A stretch of 26,218 bases of DNA, taken from a virus. Below are positions 5,581-17,441 of the stretch, piece by piece. The notes beneath the pieces are model-generated. The model made no database searches and had not been told where the DNA came from. It saw only the letters and a program-made list of their open reading frames with translations. Each line of letters opens with the position of its first letter. Positions within the stretch are counted from its first letter, which is position 1. The translations under genes and the position numbers were made by a program. Location: IMG/VR virus record IMGVR_UViG_3300043408_000010, positions 1-26,218 of that record; one strand, given 5' to 3'.

Positions 5581-7217
5581 TAGTTAGCTTCCTTTGAAAT
5601 CTTCGCCTTAGCACCAATCAGCGGAGTGATGCTAAAGACCTGTACAGGTGATGTGAGCGCCGTACCGTCACAGTCTAAGTATAACTCAAAGTAGATTCGA
5701 CGGAAGCGTAGAGACTGATTCAACTTAGCCTCCATGCGTAACACAGCACCAGAAGCAAACGCGTCAACAAGGGTGTCAATACCACCTGAAGGTTTGTCTA
5801 GGTTATCCCAAGTACCGTAAACAATGTCACCCGGCGCGTCATAAGATAGCTGATCCCACGTCTTGAAGCTTGCTTCGTCTGGGTAGTCTTTAGAGATTTG
5901 ATCCCAGCTGAGCTGCAAAGCCTGTTCAGGCAAAGCAACAGGGTAAACGACAGCCTTGACTGGCTTAGCAGTAGCGATGTCGGCAACCCACATAAACAGG
6001 CGCTTCCATTCGGCAGGGGTCTGGAAGTCGTAGATCTTTGTGCGAATAGAGCACTTAATGTTTTCGGTGCCTACTGGGCTGTAAGGTGAGTCTTCAATAC
6101 GCCACAGTGAGTGCTCAGTTGTGCCACCACTGATGCCATAGAAAAGTGATTCTTCTAATTCTTCTGAGCGTCGCGGGACGGTCCAGAAATATGCGACTTT
6201 GCTTGTGCTTTCCCACTCGCTCCATGTCTCCGTATCTAGGTTGTATGAGAACATACCGCCGTTGTGGAAAACTATGCAGCGACGTCCAACAACTGATACT
6301 GCGTGCTGGAAACGCTTGGGATAGTCGTATGCCTCAAACTTTACTCTAGCTGCGTTGAGTGGGTAATACAACCAGTTTTGGTACTTGTAAAGAATTCCGC
6401 CAGATAGAACAAAGTGGGCGTTTTCGAACTTGACAACTGATCTGCGAGATTCTGCACCAATGTCCTGTTGCATGGCCTGCATGGTGCCCTCTTCAGGGAC
6501 GTCGCCGTAGCTGTAACGGTAGGTGCTGCGGTTACGGAAGATAACGATGTCGTTATAACCTTGCGCGATTGCGGTAATCCATTGTCCGTCACCGCCACCA
6601 ATTTCAACGTACATGTAGTTGAGCTCAGTGGTTAGCCAGTTCCAGACCGAAGTTGATTCGCCTGAGGGGCCAGCGGTTGAAATGTTTGACCAGTAAATGA
6701 TGTTGGCGGTTGAGGTGCCTTCTACGCCGTAACCAAAGAAGCGAGTCTGGAATAGTTCGATACCGCCAAGCGCAGGCATGGTTGGGGTGTTGATAAAGGT
6801 ACCGTTTTCCCAGTAGCCGCCCTGACCTGCGGTGGTTGACGACAATACAATCTTGTTTAGGTATTGGGTGCAGTCTGAGGCTTTGAACGCTGCAATCTCG
6901 GTAAATGCTTTAGAGATAACGTTGTAGATCCAAGTTTTTGCGGTAGTTACAACAACAAGGTAACGAGTGCCATCATTTTTGATGTAAGTACCAATGATGT
7001 CAATGGCTTGCCCGGTCACTGGTGTAGTGATGACGGTTGAGCCATTCTTCTCTTGGTAGATTGGCGGGCGCGAAATCAAGGCACCGTTAGTGGTGAACTC
7101 CATGTTGATGATGGACGCGAGCTCGTTGTCTGCGATAGCAGATTGGTCCCAGTAGTTGTTTAGACCACCGGTGAACTGTTGTAGAACTACGGAACGTGAA
7201 CGAACAATCTGTGACAT
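5580..7217 (-). CDS. Tail nozzle / tubular-B-like protein
   Basis: A 545-residue protein beginning MSQIVRSRSVVLQQFTGGLN. The segment FTGGLNNYWDQSAIADNELA followed by a statement of the NGALISRPP type (residues ~15-52) resembles the opening of short-tail nozzle proteins (T7 gp12 / P22 gp10 class). In those, a GG-(L/I)-N/S turn precedes an acidic helix and an R-PP strand. The rest is rich in beta-type sequence with many Trp/Tyr/Phe, as expected of the beta-propeller/nozzle fold. It directly follows the adaptor gene: that gene's TAA (7218-7220) abuts this ATG (7215-7217) with no gap. Expected role: distal ring of the short tail through which DNA passes. The family is inferred from local similarity and synteny, not from a search. 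Confidence 0.68.
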   Translation of the reverse strand: MSQIVRSRSVVLQQFTGGLNNYWDQSAIADNELASIINMEFTTNGALISRPPIYQEKNGSTVITTPVTGQAIDIIGTYIKNDGTRYLVVVTTAKTWIYNVISKAFTEIAAFKASDCTQYLNKIVLSSTTAGQGGYWENGTFINTPTMPALGGIELFQTRFFGYGVEGTSTANIIYWSNISTAGPSGESTSVWNWLTTELNYMYVEIGGGDGQWITAIAQGYNDIVIFRNRSTYRYSYGDVPEEGTMQAMQQDIGAESRRSVVKFENAHFVLSGGILYKYQNWLYYPLNAARVKFEAYDYPKRFQHAVSVVGRRCIVFHNGGMFSYNLDTETWSEWESTSKVAYFWTVPRRSEELEESLFYGISGGTTEHSLWRIEDSPYSPVGTENIKCSIRTKIYDFQTPAEWKRLFMWVADIATAKPVKAVVYPVALPEQALQLSWDQISKDYPDEASFKTWDQLSYDAPGDIVYGTWDNLDKPSGGIDTLVDAFASGAVLRMEAKLNQSLRFRRIYFELYLDCDGTALTSPVQVFSITPLIGAKAKISKEAN

Positions 7218-8375: not shown

Positions 8376-9608
8376 TTATGCACCAAGTTCGGTGATGTTT
8401 GATAGCTTGGCGTGTGCGTTACGACGGTAGGTACCGATTTCGCTGTACTGGTACAAGCGAGCTTCGTAAGCGTCAGTGTTTGCAACGCGTGACCACATTG
8501 AGCCGTCGCGGTCCATCCATGACCAGTCCTTCTTGCGGTTGATAACAAGTTCCTTTGAAGACAACGCGTAGATGGTGCCCTTTGGAGCTGCGTAGTCTGA
8601 AACGAACTTGATTGGCTTACCAAGAGCTTCGAAGGTGAATGAGCGCTGACCACCAGTTAGGCCTGCACCGTTGGTGAACTGACGCATGCCCTGAAGCAAG
8701 TTCCAGTAAGCGTTGTATACACCCGGTGAAGCTAGGAATACGTCAACGTCGCCACCCTTCTTGTCAACTGCCTGTACCAATGAGATAAGGTCCATCTCGG
8801 TTAGTGAGCCAGTTGCGGTACCCGGGGTACCCAAGGTGCGGATGGTTGAGTTCCAAGAAGAAACAGATGCGCCGTCGATGCCGTGTAGTGAGTTACCTGA
8901 ACCCACGATTGCACCTAGACCGGTTAGTTCCTTGTTGAATGAGTTAGCGCCACCTGATGCGCGGACGATGATGTCGCCTACTGCAGCAGTGGTGGTGGTG
9001 TCGAAGGTTACAGCGCCGGTAGTCTCGTTCACTGCTACAACAACAAGAGCTGCCTTCTTAACGGTAGGGGTACCGTCGGTTAGGTCAGTTCCGTCGAGTA
9101 GGTCAACGACCATGCCCTCTTCGATCCAGTGTGCGTCAACAAATACAACGGTTGCGTTTGCAGTGGTAACAGCGGTCTTTACAGCACCGAGGGTACCTGA
9201 TGCGTCACCGTAAATCTGACGGTTTAGGTCGCGAGTTAGGTCGCGCTTTAGACCCTTGATTTCAGCGTCAACAACGTTGATGAATGAGTTGTAGTTGTCT
9301 GCAGCCTGCTCGAAAAGCTGACCGTCAACCTCGATAGCACCGTATAGGTTCTTGAGGTATAGGTGAGCCTGCTTGTACTTCTGAGCGCCAGCTACTGGTA
9401 GAGCCTCGCGTACACCACGTGCACCGATGCCTTGGTTACGACCGATGTGAGTGTCGAATACGACCTCTTTACCGTTCTGGGTGATGTGCTGCGCCGACGA
9501 CTCGATGAACTCAAGTGCCGGGTTCTTGTCTGCAAGCTGTTCGTGAAGGTCGCCATAAACGAGCTTCAGCGCGTCACTTGCGAAGGTTAGGATTCCCTGA
9601 CCTGCCAT
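8376..9608 (-). CDS. Major capsid protein (HK97-fold type)
   Basis: A 410-residue protein from the ATG at 9606-9608 (MAGQGILTFASDALKLVYGD). A GTG three codons upstream is only 1-2 nt from the AGGAG ribosome site, whereas the ATG has ~10 nt spacing. Features typical of HK97-like coat proteins are an early helix, an extended loop region with Gly-rich GRNQGIGARGVREALP, a long spine-type helix (AEIKGLKRDLTRDLNRQIYG) and a C-terminal beta-rich part with a YAAPKGTIYAL-type strand. Between ~148 and ~218 there is a Thr/Val-rich beta segment that looks like an inserted surface domain. It follows the scaffold gene and is bracketed by two terminators, as expected for the most abundant virion protein. 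Family assigned from context and overall pattern. Confidence 0.8.
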   Translation of the reverse strand: MAGQGILTFASDALKLVYGDLHEQLADKNPALEFIESSAQHITQNGKEVVFDTHIGRNQGIGARGVREALPVAGAQKYKQAHLYLKNLYGAIEVDGQLFEQAADNYNSFINVVDAEIKGLKRDLTRDLNRQIYGDASGTLGAVKTAVTTANATVVFVDAHWIEEGMVVDLLDGTDLTDGTPTVKKAALVVVAVNETTGAVTFDTTTTAAVGDIIVRASGGANSFNKELTGLGAIVGSGNSLHGIDGASVSSWNSTIRTLGTPGTATGSLTEMDLISLVQAVDKKGGDVDVFLASPGVYNAYWNLLQGMRQFTNGAGLTGGQRSFTFEALGKPIKFVSDYAAPKGTIYALSSKELVINRKKDWSWMDRDGSMWSRVANTDAYEARLYQYSEIGTYRRNAHAKLSNITELGA

Positions 9609-9615
9609 GTGATTC

Positions 9616-9629
9616 ACTCTCCTAAGAGT
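9616..9629 (-). promoter_or_regulatory. Hairpin presenting the capsid gene ribosome-binding site
   Basis: On the minus strand ACTCT-TAGG-AGAGT forms a 5-bp stem with a 4-nt loop. The Shine-Dalgarno AGGAG is partly in the loop and partly in the 3' arm. A GC-rich inverted segment (GCCC...GGGC, about 9662-9681) lies further up the leader. Such structure may stabilise the capsid mRNA or modulate its translation. Confidence 0.35.
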
Positions 9630-9701
9630 AAAAGAAAATAACGAAAGTTAGTGTTATCGCTTGCCCTGACCCTCTTAGGGGCTGTACACGGATACTTTTA
9701 T

Positions 9702-9733
9702 CTTATAACACAAATGTTTCACGTGAAACACAA
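9702..9733 (-). promoter_or_regulatory. Probable promoter of the capsid gene
   Basis: This is the only sizeable intergenic gap in the structural operon (9618-9820), downstream of a terminator, so the capsid gene needs its own promoter. On the minus strand TTGTGT (9733-9728) is followed after 17 nt by TGTTAT (9710-9705). The overlapping TATAAG (9707-9702) is an alternative -10, which would pair with TGTTTC at 17 nt. The 9715-9730 palindrome occupies the -35/spacer region in either reading. The predicted leader is ~85-90 nt. Confidence 0.5.
9715..9730. promoter_or_regulatory. parS: Exact match to consensus chromosomal parS (ParB-loading site)
   Basis: The sequence TGTTTCACGTGAAACA is a perfect 16-bp inverted repeat. 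It equals the consensus parS bound by chromosomal ParB/Spo0J proteins in many bacteria, including Actinobacteria and Firmicutes; this is established knowledge. It lies 106 bp upstream of the capsid start, within the promoter region. It is the only copy I see in the window, and no parA or parB gene is visible here. Binding by a host ParB is inference. A phage-encoded regulator that happens to use the same palindrome is the alternative. Confidence 0.8.
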
Positions 9734-9774: not shown

Positions 9775-9804
9775 AAAGAAAAACCCCACCTTTACAGATG
9801 GGGT
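9775..9804 (-). terminator. Intrinsic terminator after the scaffold gene
   Basis: In the minus-strand direction ACCCCA (9788-9783 complement) and TGGGGT (9799-9804) form a 6-bp GC-rich stem with a 10-nt loop. It is followed by a U-rich tract (complement of 9783-9775). It lies 17 nt after the scaffold stop codon and separates portal/scaffold transcription from the capsid unit. Confidence 0.8.
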
Positions 9805-9820: not shown

Positions 9821-10660
9821 TTAGCTGTTGCGAGCGCGTTCCTCAAACATACGCTGCAACATTGCTTTCTTGCCTGCGTCATCTTTTGGAATGCTTAGAT
9901 CGTTTGACGGTACACCAGCACCGCCAGCTGAGCCTACAACCATTGGTGCTGGCTCAGAACCTGCTGGGCTGAAAGGCCCAACCATAGCCTGCAACTGCTT
10001 TGCAGCATCTGCAACAGTGATCTCGCGTCCAGCGTTTAGGGCTGCGTTCATAAGGTCATAGATTGCGACCTCGTGTGCCTCTGAAATGTTGTGAGCCTTT
10101 TTGAGGTTCGCCATCTCAGATTCAAGTTCAACAGTGTACTTCTCAGTTTCTTTAGCAAGCTCCTGCTGATAAATGTAGTCGTCAGCTTCAGACTGCTTAG
10201 CTTTGAGTGCGTCAATCTCCTTCTGCAAAGCTGCAGGGATTTTCTCGCCATCAAAGATGTCTTCGAAGTCTTCACCAGACTGCTCTTCCATCATGTCCTT
10301 AGCGACCTGTGCAGCCTCTTCTTTGAGAAGACCCTGATCGGTTAGGTAAGTTTTGAGCGAAGAATAAACTTCGGTCGGGTCGTTTTCGATTGCACGTGCA
10401 AGGTTTAGACCGCCACGAACCAGCTCAGGGGTTACGCCCTCATCAACAAGATCTTTGAACGGTGTGTACTTCTCAAGCTGCTGCTGGAAGTTGCGCTCGT
10501 TCTCCTGAAGGTAAGGAGTTACTTTTGCGTGCCAAGCTTCTGGAAGCTCAGCAAGCATCTTGTCCCATGCTGGGTGTGCTTTGGTTTCTTCAACCGGGGT
10601 CTCTACTGAAGTTTGCTCCTCAGTAGTCTGTTCAGGTGATACCTGCGTCTCGTCAGACAT
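9821..10660 (-). CDS. Capsid scaffolding protein
   Basis: A 279-residue, strongly acidic protein rich in Glu/Gln. The N-terminus MSDETQVSPEQTTEEQTSVE is disordered. The central region (~90-205) is helical and coiled-coil-like, with LQKEIDALKAKQSEADDYIY. A Gly/Pro linker around 225-250 leads to a short charged C-terminal helix (KKAMLQRMFEERARNS), like the coat-binding end of scaffolds. No protease triad is evident, so it is probably not a protease fusion. It has AAGGA five nt before the ATG, sits 8 nt after the portal stop, and immediately precedes the capsid gene, the classic scaffold location. It should assemble inside procapsids and leave before DNA packaging. Confidence 0.8.
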   Translation of the reverse strand: MSDETQVSPEQTTEEQTSVETPVEETKAHPAWDKMLAELPEAWHAKVTPYLQENERNFQQQLEKYTPFKDLVDEGVTPELVRGGLNLARAIENDPTEVYSSLKTYLTDQGLLKEEAAQVAKDMMEEQSGEDFEDIFDGEKIPAALQKEIDALKAKQSEADDYIYQQELAKETEKYTVELESEMANLKKAHNISEAHEVAIYDLMNAALNAGREITVADAAKQLQAMVGPFSPAGSEPAPMVVGSAGGAGVPSNDLSIPKDDAGKKAMLQRMFEERARNS

Positions 10661-10668
10661 TGTTTTCC

Positions 10669-12837
10669 TTACTGTAGTTGTTCAGATGTTTGGCCCATTT
10701 GGGGTGGCATCTGTGCAGCCTCAGACGGTAGTGCCTGAGGAGTTCCTTGTGCATTAGGGTCTTGACCCATCTGCGCAGCCATCATCATTTTCTGCTGCAA
10801 AGCTGCTTCGTGCATCGAAATGTGCTTCTGGAATTCTGCCTTGATTTCGTCAGGGAGAATGTCGAAGCTTTGCGACTTACGGAAACGGTTGTGAATTTCA
10901 ATGTGCACAGCGTGGTTGTCATAGTCGTGGACCTGTACAACTGCTGGAACTGAAAGCGCAATAGGCTTGCCTTCTGCATCGACCTGACCCGGAACGGTCT
11001 TGTCTGGGTCGCCGTTTGCAGCGCCCTGCTCCCACTCGCTCTGGAACTGTTCGATAACATCTGGGGTCAAACGCTTCATCATTAGGTTCTCGCGTGAAGC
11101 GTGGTTCTCGTCGAGCTTCAAAATGTTGTAGAAGTTCTTGAGCATACCCATGTCGAGCATCTTCAAACCCTCTTGCGGGGTGATGAACTGCATCTTCATC
11201 CATTCCGTAATCAATGCCTGACGTGCAGACTTTGAAGTTGGAAGAGCTGAGCCAGACTCGATACGGATGTCGTTACCTGAAGCAATGTCTGCACCTGAAA
11301 GAACAGTTGCATCAAATGCGCCGTCGGTGCCAACGGTCTTGATTAGGCGTGGCTGGTCGACGTACTGAATAAATAGGCTGAGCGACTGCTTTGCAACCTT
11401 CTCCACGGCAGCTTCAATGCTTGAGAAAATGGTGGTTAGGTAAGCGTCGTCGCGCTCCTGTAGGTAGTTGATTGCGGTTGCAGCGGTTACGCCACCTGAT
11501 TCACCGCGTGAAACTTGGTGCTGACCTGAAATGTCTTCGAAATCTGCCTGCAACTGCTGCACTTCTTGGAGTACATAGTTTGGTAGAGGCTGGATTGGTA
11601 CCGGCTGAGGCATTGAGAACCCCGGACGGACAGGAATCCAAAGACCAGCCTTAGCTGAAATCTTCCTAGGGTCTACAGCGCCCTCGTGGTACATCATCTG
11701 AGGCTTAGCCATAAGGTTCTTAGCCTGCACGATCTGTGAACGAGTGCGGTTGAGCTCACGCTGCAAAGGAATCAAGTTCTTGATAACTGAACGGCGGTAG
11801 AAATTTCCAGTCGCAATCGCATAGGTGTGTGCAAAAGGGTAGCTCTTGTGTGCGTAAGGGATACCATTTTCTGCAAACTGTACGATTTCGTTGTCAACGA
11901 TGGTGATTAGGCCACCCTTTGGCAAGAATGGGCAACCGTTTGGCTTAGCCCACATTTCAATGACGAGTACAGCGTCTGGGCGGGTTGCGCCACCAGACTT
12001 GGTGTTGATTAGTGCGTTGTCCATGATTTCAGTTGCTGAAACCTTGGTTGGCTTGAAGTCTTTAGGGAGTACGCCACCGAAGGTGCTCTTTACCCATGCT
12101 TCGCTCTTGGTGTAAACGTTGAAAATGTATGGCTGGTTTTCAAGGTTTTCTTCAGCCAAGTCTGGAACAAATAGGTGGAACGGTGAAACTACTTCATGTG
12201 CGACGTCGCCAGTTGAGGCAACCTGCTGGATGATCTTCTTCTGTCCAGTGTATGGGTCTTCAACGGCGGTTGGCACAACTTCTTTAGCTGAAGAGTCCCA
12301 CAAGGTTTTGATGAAAGCGTTTCCGCAAACTGCACGCCAAAACTCTGACTTCTGCAGAATGTCGGTCTGGAAGTTTGCTTTGTCGTACATTGCTTGCCAA
12401 ACCTGTTCGGCAGCTGATGCAGCCATTAGGTCGTCATCGTCGTTTGATGCTGGCACTACGGTTGCGCTTGGGTGCCCTGAAGATGTTTTAGCAATTTCGG
12501 TACGGATGATTGGTTCGATTTTGTTTACAACAAGGCGTGGAACACGAGAAGGGTTAGGTGGGTCCATGAGCTGCTGTGGACCGCCCTTGATTACCTCGGT
12601 CCATTCACGGTATTGTGCACCGTTGTAGAAGGCAAGCTGCAAATACCAGTCTTGTTCTTCTTGCTTGCGAGCAGCCTTAGCCTTCTCGTATTCGCCTTTG
12701 ACCCATGAGACTAGCTTCTTGGCTTCGTCTTTACGCTTGAACTGGTTGAGGATGCTGTCTTCAGCCATCGCTCCTTCAACCGGGGTACCAGAAATGTACT
12801 GCCCAGTTTTACCGTCAAAGTATTGTTCGTTTGCCAT
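10669..12837 (-). CDS. Portal protein (P22-like)
   Basis: A 722-residue protein, the size of P22-type portals and larger than most siphovirus portals. The N-terminal helix carries WVKGEYEKAKAARKQEEQDW and the LAFYNGAQYREW segment typical of the family. ASSGHPSATVVPASNDDDDL (~113-133) and RSVIKNLIPLQRELNRTRSQ (~356-375, the region leading into the tunnel/stem helices) are also portal-like. The C-terminal ~70 residues are Gln/Met/Pro-rich (barrel-type tail). It forms the dodecameric channel at the capsid vertex, binding terminase during packaging and the adaptor afterwards. Gene order (terminase upstream, scaffold downstream) agrees. A GGAATAGG-like site precedes the ATG. Confidence 0.85.
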   Translation of the reverse strand: MANEQYFDGKTGQYISGTPVEGAMAEDSILNQFKRKDEAKKLVSWVKGEYEKAKAARKQEEQDWYLQLAFYNGAQYREWTEVIKGGPQQLMDPPNPSRVPRLVVNKIEPIIRTEIAKTSSGHPSATVVPASNDDDDLMAASAAEQVWQAMYDKANFQTDILQKSEFWRAVCGNAFIKTLWDSSAKEVVPTAVEDPYTGQKKIIQQVASTGDVAHEVVSPFHLFVPDLAEENLENQPYIFNVYTKSEAWVKSTFGGVLPKDFKPTKVSATEIMDNALINTKSGGATRPDAVLVIEMWAKPNGCPFLPKGGLITIVDNEIVQFAENGIPYAHKSYPFAHTYAIATGNFYRRSVIKNLIPLQRELNRTRSQIVQAKNLMAKPQMMYHEGAVDPRKISAKAGLWIPVRPGFSMPQPVPIQPLPNYVLQEVQQLQADFEDISGQHQVSRGESGGVTAATAINYLQERDDAYLTTIFSSIEAAVEKVAKQSLSLFIQYVDQPRLIKTVGTDGAFDATVLSGADIASGNDIRIESGSALPTSKSARQALITEWMKMQFITPQEGLKMLDMGMLKNFYNILKLDENHASRENLMMKRLTPDVIEQFQSEWEQGAANGDPDKTVPGQVDAEGKPIALSVPAVVQVHDYDNHAVHIEIHNRFRKSQSFDILPDEIKAEFQKHISMHEAALQQKMMMAAQMGQDPNAQGTPQALPSEAAQMPPQMGQTSEQLQ

Positions 12838-12851
12838 AAGCCTATTCCGAA

Positions 12852-13175
12852 TCAGTTGTAAGTTTCAAAGATCGCAGAAAGTTGCTTTTCGGCTTCTTCC
12901 AGCTCTAGTTCTTCACCAGTCTTATACAATCCAGTATAGCCAGTTTCAGCGTTTATCACAGGTTCAACCGTGACGGCTTGCAACTGTTGGAATGCCATAG
13001 GGTCTTTACTTGCGAGAAGGTTTGACAGGTGTAGGATTGACTGCTCCCGCATTTTCTCCGTCGCTGCTTGGTTCGTCGACAGGAGCATTATCATCCTGAA
13101 CATCCGAATCGCTATGAACGTGAGCGCTGTAAGAAACAGCGAAGATAAAATCAGTAACGCTACTACGAATTCCAT
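12852..13175 (-). CDS. Small membrane-anchored protein, unknown function
   Basis: A 107-residue protein. Residues 3-32 form one hydrophobic segment (VVALLILSSLFLTALTFIAI and onward) with no obvious signal-peptidase site, so it is probably an N-terminally anchored inner-membrane protein. The remaining 75 residues are helical and charged (KMREQSILHLSNLLASKDPM), ending EELELEEAEKQLSAIFETYN. AAGGA lies 7 nt before its ATG, inside the upstream reading frame. The first 170 nt overlap the zinc-ribbon gene in another frame. The portal gene begins 14 nt downstream. Its presence between terminase and portal is unusual. It could be a lysis-related, superinfection or virion-associated membrane protein, but the sequence does not decide. 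Confidence 0.6.
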   Translation of the reverse strand: MEFVVALLILSSLFLTALTFIAIRMFRMIMLLSTNQAATEKMREQSILHLSNLLASKDPMAFQQLQAVTVEPVINAETGYTGLYKTGEELELEEAEKQLSAIFETYN

Positions 13176-13446
13176 TAATCAATCCTTCTACTAGGTCGGG
13201 TACTTTAGCTAGTTCCATTTCGCGTGCTTCGACGTCAGCTTCTAGTGCAAAGATGCGTTCCTCTAGTGGCGCTTCTTCTGCGTAGCCGATGAACAAAGCG
13301 AGCTCGGTTGCACAGTTCTTGCACAACTGGGCTGAACCGCCTGATAGCAGCTCGCGTCCTAGGTCGAATAGTTCCTTGTTGTTTCCGCATGAAACGCAAG
13401 ACGATGGGAATGGGCCACCGTTTTCGAAGTAATTAAAGTGTCTCAA
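13006..13446 (-). CDS. Zinc-ribbon protein between terminase and portal
   Basis: A 146-residue protein from a TTG start (13444-13446) with AAGGA six nt upstream, 3 nt after the terL stop. C17-x2-C20 and C42-x2-C45 (SCVSCGNNKE and LCKNCATELA) make a probable zinc ribbon. Residues 56-82 are an acidic helix (LEERIFALEADVEAREMELA). From residue 91 onward the frame is overprinted by the membrane-protein gene. This tail is Ser/Asp/Pro-rich and probably disordered, ending PTPVKPSRK. The protein may bind nucleic acid or terminase. The family is not identified, and the position next to terL suggests a packaging or head-assembly accessory role. Confidence 0.65.
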   Translation of the reverse strand: MRHFNYFENGGPFPSSCVSCGNNKELFDLGRELLSGGSAQLCKNCATELALFIGYAEEAPLEERIFALEADVEAREMELAKVPDLVEGLINGIRSSVTDFIFAVSYSAHVHSDSDVQDDNAPVDEPSSDGENAGAVNPTPVKPSRK

Positions 13447-13449
13447 TTT

Positions 13450-14985
13450 TTATCCTTCTAGTTCTGTTATGGATGACGCACCGCGCCATTCTTGACCCCA
13501 AGGGTCTTGTTCATCATACTGCGTAAACTTGGATGTGCCACCAAATTCTGACCTAAAAGCCATGTGGAAACTTTCGCTTGCTTGCACTGGCGTTTGTGCG
13601 TCAGGGGCAAGGTTAGGCATAAAAGTCATCGCATACTTGAGAGCGTCGTAACAGTGGTTGTCTTTGTCACGGATCTCTTCAAGCTTGTTTTTCATCTCAG
13701 CAATCTTTGGTGAAGCGTGTTTCTTCCACTTCAACTTAGGTAGTTCCGCAATGAGTTCTGGACAGTCGTCAGTGATCATCAGCCAAGGCTTGCCAGTCTT
13801 AGGGTTGATTTTCATGTACTGCTGCAAACGTTCTAGACCAATTCGGCGGTCGTTAGGGATTTGGTCTACCGCAATATAGATGCCATGCTTTGCGTACTCT
13901 TGCTGAATGCTGGTGCCTGTGTGTTCTTTTGTTTGCTTAATCGCAGGGTCGCCAGTGGTGAGATAGAGCTCCGCACCTGATTCGCGAAGTATCTGTTTTG
14001 TACGCTTGTTGACCTCAACGGAGTGGTAGTCAACGTTTTCTCTGGCTTTGTAGTATTCGTTGAAGACGACAATAGTTCCATCTTCGTCAACTGCCAGCCA
14101 CAGCCAGACTGTGGGGTTGGTAAACCCTGAATCCATTGTTCGAACAATGCGATGCTTTCCTGTGGGTTTGAACTGCCCTCTAGGAATACAGTGTGTTGTA
14201 GGTGAGAATTCTGAAAAGACTGAACCGCCAAGATGGACGTATTGTCCGTTGCGTCGGATGAGCTGCTCTTCTGGGCTGAGCGACTCCATGTAGCGTGCGA
14301 TAGCTTCGCGCGACAACGTTGGGTTGTCGTCCATGCTCGCTTCAACCACGCCAATGTCTTTTGTTCCTTCTTGTGCTGGGATGTATACGTCTTCTAGGAT
14401 CCACTCCATACCTTGGACTGGGGTTTGTGACATCCACCAATCTCCGTCGGTGTCAATCAAACGTGCCAAACATTCTTGCCAAACAGTTTTTGGGCATTCT
14501 TCGTCGAAGTGTACAAAGTGTCGGCTTGAACCTGCGAACTTGTCTAGGTCTTGGTCTTGCGACATGAACTCTACGAAGCTACCGTTGTTGAGCGTTAGCA
14601 CGTGACGTTCGCGAGAGTAGCTGTCTTCCCAAGAACCGTTGATTAGGTATTTCTTGGGCAGCCATTGTTTCCAAAGGGGCAGAATAATTTTGTCTACACC
14701 GTTTAGGAAGTCAACTGCGACCACTCGTCCACGTACTGCTTCGTCTGGCATCTTACGCCACGGGTGTGTCTTTGTGACGTAGTAGATGCCTTCAATGGTA
14801 GAACCGAGGGATTTACCTGATCGGTTTCCGCCAATGTAAAGTCGTGCTTTGTTTTGCATCTTGTGAAACATCTCTTGTTTCTCGGATGCTTTGTAGTTGT
14901 ATAGGTTTGGTGCTGCAGCGGATTCTTGGATTGATTCACCAAGCCCGCGTAGTACGTCTGCTAAGTCGAAGTTATCTTTCGCCAC
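13450..14985 (-). CDS. terL: Terminase large subunit (packaging ATPase/nuclease)
   Basis: A 511-residue protein from a GTG start (14983-14985) preceded by AAGG. The ATPase domain shows Walker A GGNRSGKS (52-59) and Walker B FVHFDEE (157-163). MSQTPVQGMEW near 185-195 fits the coupling-motif area. The RNase-H-fold nuclease is indicated by RTMDSGFTNPTVW (D285), FNEYYK (E310), TTGDPAIK (D345) and a late Asp in HCYDALKYAM (D446). It docks on the portal, cleaves concatemeric DNA and translocates it into the procapsid. No recognisable small-terminase gene adjoins it. A 74-residue helix-turn-helix protein at 22717-22941 is a candidate partner. The first 14 nt overlap the upstream nuclease gene. Confidence 0.95.
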   Translation of the reverse strand: MAKDNFDLADVLRGLGESIQESAAAPNLYNYKASEKQEMFHKMQNKARLYIGGNRSGKSLGSTIEGIYYVTKTHPWRKMPDEAVRGRVVAVDFLNGVDKIILPLWKQWLPKKYLINGSWEDSYSRERHVLTLNNGSFVEFMSQDQDLDKFAGSSRHFVHFDEECPKTVWQECLARLIDTDGDWWMSQTPVQGMEWILEDVYIPAQEGTKDIGVVEASMDDNPTLSREAIARYMESLSPEEQLIRRNGQYVHLGGSVFSEFSPTTHCIPRGQFKPTGKHRIVRTMDSGFTNPTVWLWLAVDEDGTIVVFNEYYKARENVDYHSVEVNKRTKQILRESGAELYLTTGDPAIKQTKEHTGTSIQQEYAKHGIYIAVDQIPNDRRIGLERLQQYMKINPKTGKPWLMITDDCPELIAELPKLKWKKHASPKIAEMKNKLEEIRDKDNHCYDALKYAMTFMPNLAPDAQTPVQASESFHMAFRSEFGGTSKFTQYDEQDPWGQEWRGASSITELEG

Positions 14986-15702: not shown

Positions 15703-17441
15703 TGGCAGTTATTATTCAGATTCGTCGCGGTGTTGCGTCTGCTTGGACTTCAGCTAACCCTGTTCTTGCGCAAGGTGAGATGGGCGTTGAAACTGACACG
15801 CTCAAAGTAAAGATTGGTAACGGCACTAGCAACTGGGTTTCTTTGCCTTACTTCACTCAAGGTGTTGCAGGTTTGTCTGCGTACCAGATTGCGGTTGCTA
15901 ACGGCTTTGTTGGTACTGAGGCTGCTTGGGTTGCGTCACTTGAGGGCGATGTTGGCCCACAGGGACCGCAAGGTATTCAGGGTCCAACTGGTGCAACTGG
16001 CGCAACTGGCGCTACCGGTGCGACTGGTCCGCAGGGCTTGCAAGGTATTCAGGGTGAGATTGGCCCACAGGGTATTCAAGGTATTCAGGGTGTCAAGGGT
16101 GACACTGGCGATACTGGTCCACAGGGTATTCAAGGTATTCAGGGTATTCAAGGTATTCAGGGTGAAACTGGTCCTACTGGCCCGCAGGGTATTCAGGGTA
16201 TTCAGGGTCCTATTGGTGCTGCAGCAACCATCGAAGGTTCTGTACCTACCGTAGGTGACTTGCCAACAACCGGCGTTACCTCTGGTGACGGTTACATTGT
16301 TCAAGCTGACGGCGACCTTTACATTTGGAATGGCAGCGCTTGGACTAGCGTTGGTCAGATTGTTGGACCAGAAGGTCCGCAAGGTTTGACTGGTGCTACT
16401 GGTGCTACTGGCCCTACTGGACCTCAAGGCCCACAAGGTATTCAGGGCGACACTGGTCTAACTGGTCCCACTGGTGCTACTGGCCCTCAAGGCCCGCAGG
16501 GTATTCAGGGTATTCAGGGCGATGTTGGCCCTACTGGCCCACAAGGACCCCAAGGCTTACAGGGCGACACCGGCTTGACTGGTGCCACTGGTGCTACTGG
16601 CCCACAAGGCCCGCAAGGTATTCAGGGCGACACTGGACCTGCCGGTCCAACTGGCCCTACTGGTGCTACTGGTGCTACAGGTGCTACAGGTCCGGGCGTA
16701 GCAGCGGGCGGTACTACTGGGCAGATCCTTGCCAAGGTTGATGGCACAGATTACAACACAACTTGGATTGACAACTACACGGGTCAAGTCAAGCATCTTG
16801 TGAAGAATAACTCTGGGGCTACCATGCCTAAGGGTTCGGTTGTCTACATTTCGTCTTCTGCCGGAACAAACATGAACGTTTCGCTTTCGGATGCAGACAC
16901 TGAGCCTACATCGTCGAAGACCATGGGCATCCTTGAATCCGAGCTGGTTACTGGCGGCATCGGCTACGTAATCACTGAAGGCCTACTTGCAGGTTTGAAC
17001 ACTAGCACCGCTACTGCTGGTCAGTCGATTTGGCTGTCTTCAACTGCTGGTCAGTTTGTGTATGGCGCACCACCTGCAAAACCTGCACACTCGGTTTACC
17101 TAGGCGTTGTCACCCGCGTACAAAGCATCAACGGCGAAATCTTCGTCAAGGTTCAGAACGGCTACGAAATTGAAGAGCTCCACAACGTTTCGATTGATGG
17201 GTCGCTTGCAAACAAGCAGGTAATCCAGTACGACTCTGCGACTTCTTTGTGGAAGAACGCAACCATCTCTGCAGGTGTTAGCGTCTCAGAAACTCCGCCG
17301 TCTTCGCCAAGCGCAGGCGACATGTGGTTCAACTCGACCACCGGCCGCATTTTCGTGTACTTTGATTCGTTTTGGGTAGAGCCAACACCGACACCTCAAG
17401 TAACCCCAGATCCGCTTCACCCATTCTTGCTAGGAGTGTAA
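15702..17441 (+). CDS. Collagen-like tail fibre / host-recognition protein
   Basis: A 579-residue protein. Residues 1-50 ([20 protein letters not shown], with [18 protein letters not shown]) match the short N-terminal virion-binding domain common at the start of phage fibres. [20 protein letters not shown] (57-76) is a frequent linker before collagen segments. Two Gly-X-Y tracts follow (82-172 and 222-331), dominated by GPQ, GIQ and GAT triplets. They are separated by a ~50-residue beta domain with [20 protein letters not shown]. The C-terminal ~245 residues are beta-rich, including [20 protein letters not shown] and [19 protein letters not shown], and end with a Pro-rich tail. It is expected to form a trimeric rod with a terminal receptor-binding domain. 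The 3' end abuts the next ATG. Confidence 0.85.
15945..16217 (+). repeat. First collagen-like coding repeat (Gly-X-Y)
   Basis: About 30 Gly-X-Y triplets encoded by near-identical 9-nt units of the ggtattcag / ggtattcaa kind (GIQ) mixed with GPQ and GAT units. The densest run is near 16066-16158. Slippage or recombination here would change fibre length in frame. Confidence 0.9.
16365..16697 (+). repeat. Second collagen-like coding repeat (Gly-X-Y)
   Basis: About 37 Gly-X-Y triplets. It has a higher-order pattern in which [13 protein letters not shown]-type blocks recur at about 16420, 16490, 16540 and 16605. The second tract is more regular than the first, suggesting more recent internal duplication. 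Confidence 0.9.

Follow-up and report, generated by a model that had tools for sequence, protein, structure and literature searches.

The window, by which we mean the whole stretch of 26,218 bases analysed here, is a viral record that represents a 26-kb piece of a genome of about 42-45 kb, and its minus strand encodes a podovirus-like head module. The module comprises terL, the gene for the terminase large subunit (13450-14985; PHROG 5653, 8.5e-12; Pfam Terminase_3C), the portal protein gene (10669-12837; PHROG 156, 1.6e-49; Pfam P22_portal), a gene at 9821-10660 that matches PHROG 33339, of unknown function, and the major capsid protein gene (PHROG 14242 major head protein, 1.8e-84; Pfam SU10_MCP). 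The capsid gene was called as a GTG-start ORF at 8376-9617, and its probable start is the ATG at 9608-9606. The placement of the 9821-10660 gene between the portal and capsid genes suggests that it is scaffold-like. A further gene between terL and the portal gene, gpX, lies at 13006-13446 on the minus strand. Two ORFs in this interval (12852-13446, minus strand) lie in different frames and share about 170 nt, and relatives retain this overlap. The capsid region of the window has no nucleotide similarity to cultured phages.

The intergenic space between the scaffold-like gene and the capsid gene contains a 16-bp palindrome, TGTTTCACGTGAAACA (9715-9730), located 98 bp upstream of the GTG-start capsid ORF. 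The palindrome is an exact match to the chromosomal parS consensus. The same 16-mer is the consensus parS used in PMC10197239 and is found at two M. tuberculosis sites (PMC2346475), and the exact match to TGTTNCACGTGAAACA agrees with a predicted ParB-loading parS site. An exact parS palindrome upstream of the capsid gene had been claimed from the sequence of the window, with a chance of about 6 in a million; its position, identity and intergenic placement were confirmed, and the expected number of exact copies in the window was recomputed as 5.8e-6 from base composition and 1.7e-5 under a first-order Markov model. No second parS was found in the 26,218-base window with up to 3 mismatches allowed.

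Several candidate expression signals flank the palindrome on the minus strand. A terminator-like hairpin, CCCCATCTGTAAAGGTGGGG followed by TTTTT (9784-9803), was read directly from the sequence, and a comparable hairpin with a T run occupies the same place in many relatives of the window phage; a simple scan did not call it because the loop limit of the scan is shorter. A putative -10 element of the capsid promoter, TATAAG extended by TGT (9702-9707), was recognized by comparison with TGTGCTACTAT in relatives, and a simple promoter scan of the window found none. The capsid mRNA leader (9616-9687) is kept across the family and consists of a conserved hairpin, ACAGCC(variable)GGTCAGGG (9663-9687; identified by alignment and fold), together with CTCTTAGGAGAGT around the Shine-Dalgarno sequence. 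Some pairs of the leader hairpin show compensatory changes, and its loop, CCTAAGAG, is in several family members complementary to the Shine-Dalgarno hairpin. An Rfam scan of the window, capsid leader included, gave no match. Translational control of capsid synthesis is a possible role for this leader.

No parA or parB was visible among the window ORFs scanned, as originally reported, and the near-complete relatives also lack ParB. The ParB_N domain was found in none of 41 records of the window's family (family A), in none of 16 further records from two other families (B and C, below) and cultured phages, and in 3 of 50 other parS-bearing viral records, being absent from the remaining 47. Additionally, no tyrosine integrase was found in 38 records. 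The parABS cassettes of extrachromosomal prophages and phage-plasmids encode their own ParA and ParB and use their own sites. In the relatives and nearly all other carriers no ParB_N was found, which agrees with the original distinction between the window site and these cassettes.

The placement of parS within family A was examined in 80 loci collected via capsid similarity and 64 via terminase similarity. The nearest relatives of the window phage (L122 and L123, 98% capsid identity) have the same leader and lack parS. An exact parS is found upstream of the capsid gene in L166-L170, at 70% capsid identity, and L261 carries a copy with one mismatch upstream of the capsid gene, directly after the terminator. 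L131, L139, L152, L153 and L243 instead have an exact parS within gpX, at a distance of 3.5 kb, and there it encodes Val-Ser-Arg-Glu-Thr (VSRET). The same VSRET is encoded in gpX of L137 (1 mismatch) and L248 (2 mismatches), with changes in the outermost bases only, such that the parS core of L248 is intact despite its mismatches. The corresponding place in the window is gpX codons E73-M77 (GAAGCACGCGAAATG, 13216-13230, minus strand), from which parS is absent (alignment row AGCTGACGTCGAAGCACGCGAAATGGAACTAGCT). Owing to the rapid divergence of gpX, a direct search for its relatives gave just 2 loci.

No family A record has both parS positions together. Each of four near-complete or long family A carriers has exactly one copy. 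Most family A members have no parS, including 13 near-complete genomes in which none was found with up to 1 mismatch allowed (up to 2 for three of the genomes), and the site is thus not essential. In a portal tree, carriers occupy several separate places with non-carriers between them, suggesting that parS has been lost and/or regained repeatedly, and the window lineage differs in parS position from its gpX-type tree neighbours. Distant relatives of the window phage infect Arthrobacter, Microbacterium and Cellulosimicrobium, and these distant actinobacterial phages, the sole pointer to a host, point to Actinobacteria as the candidate hosts. The cultured actinophage relatives Jasmine, Brad, Casserole, Shocker and DS1 have no parS, and a search of GTDB genomes for the window family by capsid alignment gave no match.

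A second group of carriers, family B, consists of pelagiphages unrelated to family A, in which parS is read in frame as VSRET near the N-terminus of the scaffold gene. Family B was sampled as 80 loci by capsid similarity, not chosen for parS. Among the 56 with a readable scaffold start, 19 have an exact parS, 27 have 1-3 mismatches and 10 have none. Copies that read VPRET carry TGTTCCACGTGAAACA, which is compatible with TGTTNCACGTGAAACA. The nearest cultured family B phage, EXVC031P Hodr, carries the centre-altered TGTTTCAAATGAAACA at the same place, and L446, L450, L464, L479 and others have the centre-altered forms CACATG, CACAAG and CAAATG at the same codons. Such variants indicate that the constraint has been lost or altered in some lineages, and they may represent either decay or a fit to hosts with other ParB specificity.

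Where parS lies within a gene, codon choice distinguishes conservation of the DNA from conservation of the peptide. The fraction of identical codons in family A is 0.905 in parS and 0.657 at other identical residues (112 of 20,000 random column sets reach 0.905), and in family B it is 0.959 in parS and 0.612 elsewhere (0 of 20,000 sets reach it), the sequences being related rather than independent trials and the comparison being internal to the same genes. All family B VSRET copies use GTT TCA CGT GAA, for which codon usage would predict about 0.7% (five codons), and the Arg codon is always CGT, though AGA makes up 69% of family B Arg codons. Since codons vary far less in parS than at conserved residues elsewhere in both families, it is the DNA and not the peptide that is conserved. 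The parS DNA sequence is under selection in the relatives and in family B, on which the test was done; the window copy is intergenic and alone in its clade.

Clustering by shared genes placed 229 parS loci, among the matches listed, in 94 components, the third group of interest, family C, being a single component with 78 of these loci. In about 15 family C loci parS lies shortly upstream of a PHROG 38 terL, and some records have 3-5 copies. The cultured relatives of family C are the Pelagibacter phages HTVC027P and HTVC023P. HTVC027P, in which no ParB was found, carries CGTTTCACGTGAAACA at 16412-16427, with the 14-bp core intact, between the convergent genes gp31 and gp32. The cultured pelagiphages HTVC010P, HTVC034P, HTVC035P, HTVC100P and HTVC203P have no parS. 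We compared these sites with those of 28 SAR11 genomes, found by means of a peptide pattern of ParB. In 25 of the 28 the 14-bp core GTTTCACGTGAAAC is present exactly once, about 1.63 kb from the parB motif where the flank was covered. The outer bases of parS vary alike in SAR11 chromosomes and phages while the core stays constant, and for SAR11 relatives of the family B and C hosts the phage parS matches the host's own site.

The parS 16-mer is present in at least 120 IMG/VR stretches, compared to 1 match for the reversed palindrome and 3 for a second palindrome of the same composition. The 16-mer extended by three fixed bases still gave at least 120 stretches, and since 10 of the 120 first loci carry the 3-base extension, we estimate by extrapolation a total of >1,000 to >1,400 stretches. 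IMG/VR records are fragments; with naive ORF calling and among the matches listed, 70 of 146 parS copies are intergenic, compared to 8.8% non-coding sequence in the same DNA. The ORFs flanking parS in 73 loci match terminase, portal, head-tail, scaffold and microvirus replication families, and the contexts checked are therefore largely viral. A general enrichment near terL was not found, as the distance from parS over all loci is no shorter than random and only family C is consistent there. Clusters of 2-5 parS copies, each within about 1 kb, occur on some viral contigs (L043 at 6704-6779, L017, L044 and G176), and in L043 VSRET is repeated in one protein. In L006 (2788-3708, minus strand) parS adjoins a microvirus-type replication gene, PHROG 942, suggesting that small ssDNA phages may also carry parS.

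The original prediction named absence from close relatives as a refutation, and the relatives at 98% capsid identity do lack parS. Yet parS is found again at a different position in other relatives, and in families unrelated to them, which argues for repeated selection rather than accident. Overall, the original prediction is partly supported: the site is a non-chance, exact, host-type parS without a phage ParB, and sites of this kind are kept at the DNA level. The binding of host ParB, also part of that prediction, we infer from the sequence. Together, identity with the host site, the same tolerated variation, DNA-level constraint and the lack of a phage ParB make host-ParB loading the best reading of the palindrome, and we consider it very probable. 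As the phages have an exact host-type parS and no proteins that act on it, they probably borrow the chromosome-segregation machinery of the host.

On balance, we favor the conclusion that the window palindrome is an orphan host-type parS, a predicted host-ParB loading site that is kept by selection and serves partition or positioning. Hijacked positioning or partition appears to be the likeliest use, as it fits a site that occurs singly and at flexible positions in phages in which no tyrosine integrase was found; ParB titration is its main rival. In the proposed mechanism, host ParB would load as CTP clamps at the single phage parS after injection and spread along the phage DNA. Host ParA, possibly with SMC and polar partners, would then treat the phage genome as a second chromosome origin, so that, in slow infections or a carrier state, the genome would be positioned, retained and distributed within the cell. 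Alternatively, the benefit may lie in bringing the phage genome to the place best suited to its replication and packaging. The host's own centromere would face competition as a result. There is precedent for a single site acting in this way, as PMC2346475 states that one parS stabilises an unstable plasmid via host Soj/Spo0J.

The sequence itself does not separate partition from titration or SMC recruitment. Titration resembles incompatibility: replicated phage genomes with one parS each would deplete the few host sites of ParB, the host would fail to segregate its origin and control its division, and the cell would be held for phage production. A burst of phage genomes would outnumber the chromosomal core site, of which SAR11 hosts typically have one, and the parS copies of SGI1 destabilise its helper plasmid (PMC10954446). 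The 3-5 copies in some family C records also fit, but titration alone should favor more copies and most phages have one, and the site has been lost in many relatives. We regard titration as unlikely, if still worth serious consideration. Less probable again is SMC recruitment, with host condensin loaded by ParB on the phage parS to organise or untangle replicated phage DNA for packaging. ParB is established to load SMC at parS in bacteria (PMC10197239), and in several families the neighbours of the site are genes for the head and for packaging (terL, portal, scaffold, capsid); the parS-terL distances, no shorter than random over loci generally, argue against this role, and no phage feature depends on it.

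The original prediction had also raised a coupling to capsid transcription, in which ParB or a phage regulator on the palindrome would control the capsid promoter. In the window, L166 and L261 parS directly precedes the inferred -10 element, and ParB is reported to repress promoters adjacent to parS (PMC5521831). However, close relatives retain the capsid leader without parS, and parS lies inside gpX in other relatives, inside the scaffold gene in family B and between convergent genes in HTVC027P. The site thus holds no fixed position relative to a promoter across relatives, and with these coding and convergent-gene locations we reject a role as capsid-gene operator as very unlikely. Least credible is an origin by neutral capture, by chance or by the mis-binning of host DNA as viral, for although some IMG/VR matches may be host DNA and presence within families is patchy, three families have the site among terL, portal, scaffold and capsid genes, the two control palindromes are nearly absent, and the fixed synonymous codons already contradict it.

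We return to hijacked partition or positioning, and with it lean towards a broader hypothesis: that centromere mimicry is a widespread convergent strategy in which unrelated, apparently lytic lineages, pelagiphages included, have independently gained and keep one host-type parS, even in structural-region genes, so that host ParB, and via it ParA and SMC, may act on the viral genome. ParB/parS is a near-universal bacterial chromosome-segregation system, and among the carriers are phages of the ocean's most abundant bacterium. Should host ParB load on such genomes, some of the most abundant viruses would interact with their hosts at a level so far unrecognised, and this could explain the persistence of non-integrating phages or a disturbance of host division. 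The proposal is directly testable because the cultured pair HTVC027P and Pelagibacter HTCC1062 carries the site.

The literature covered here, openly licensed papers and a few preprints, yielded parABS encoded by phages, laboratory-made parS tags and the case of SGI1, and no orphan chromosomal parS in phages. The parABS cassettes of extrachromosomal prophages and phage-plasmids, for example those of mycobacterial prophages (PMC7157519), likewise place a centromere-like site on a phage genome, whereas in the family records searched here neither ParB nor a tyrosine integrase was found. Compared to chromosomal parS, the phage 16-mer is identical and shows the same outer-base freedom around the 14-bp core as SAR11 chromosomes, and bacterial sites are also found within coding sequence, as in the M. 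bovis site in parA (PMC2346475). The phage site differs in that it is carried on a genome without parA/parB, away from the chromosomal origin, and codes for VSRET in structural-region genes of the relatives. SGI1 has plasmid-type parS sites and hijacks the ParABS encoded on its helper plasmid, a function that has been tested, whereas the phage site is chromosomal-type, belongs to apparently lytic phages and has a predicted function. The likeness is that SGI1 is also a mobile element with parS copies and no cognate parAB that uses the ParB of another replicon (PMC10954446), an arrangement in which the phages described here, with parS on an element without cognate parAB, would take the host chromosome as that replicon.
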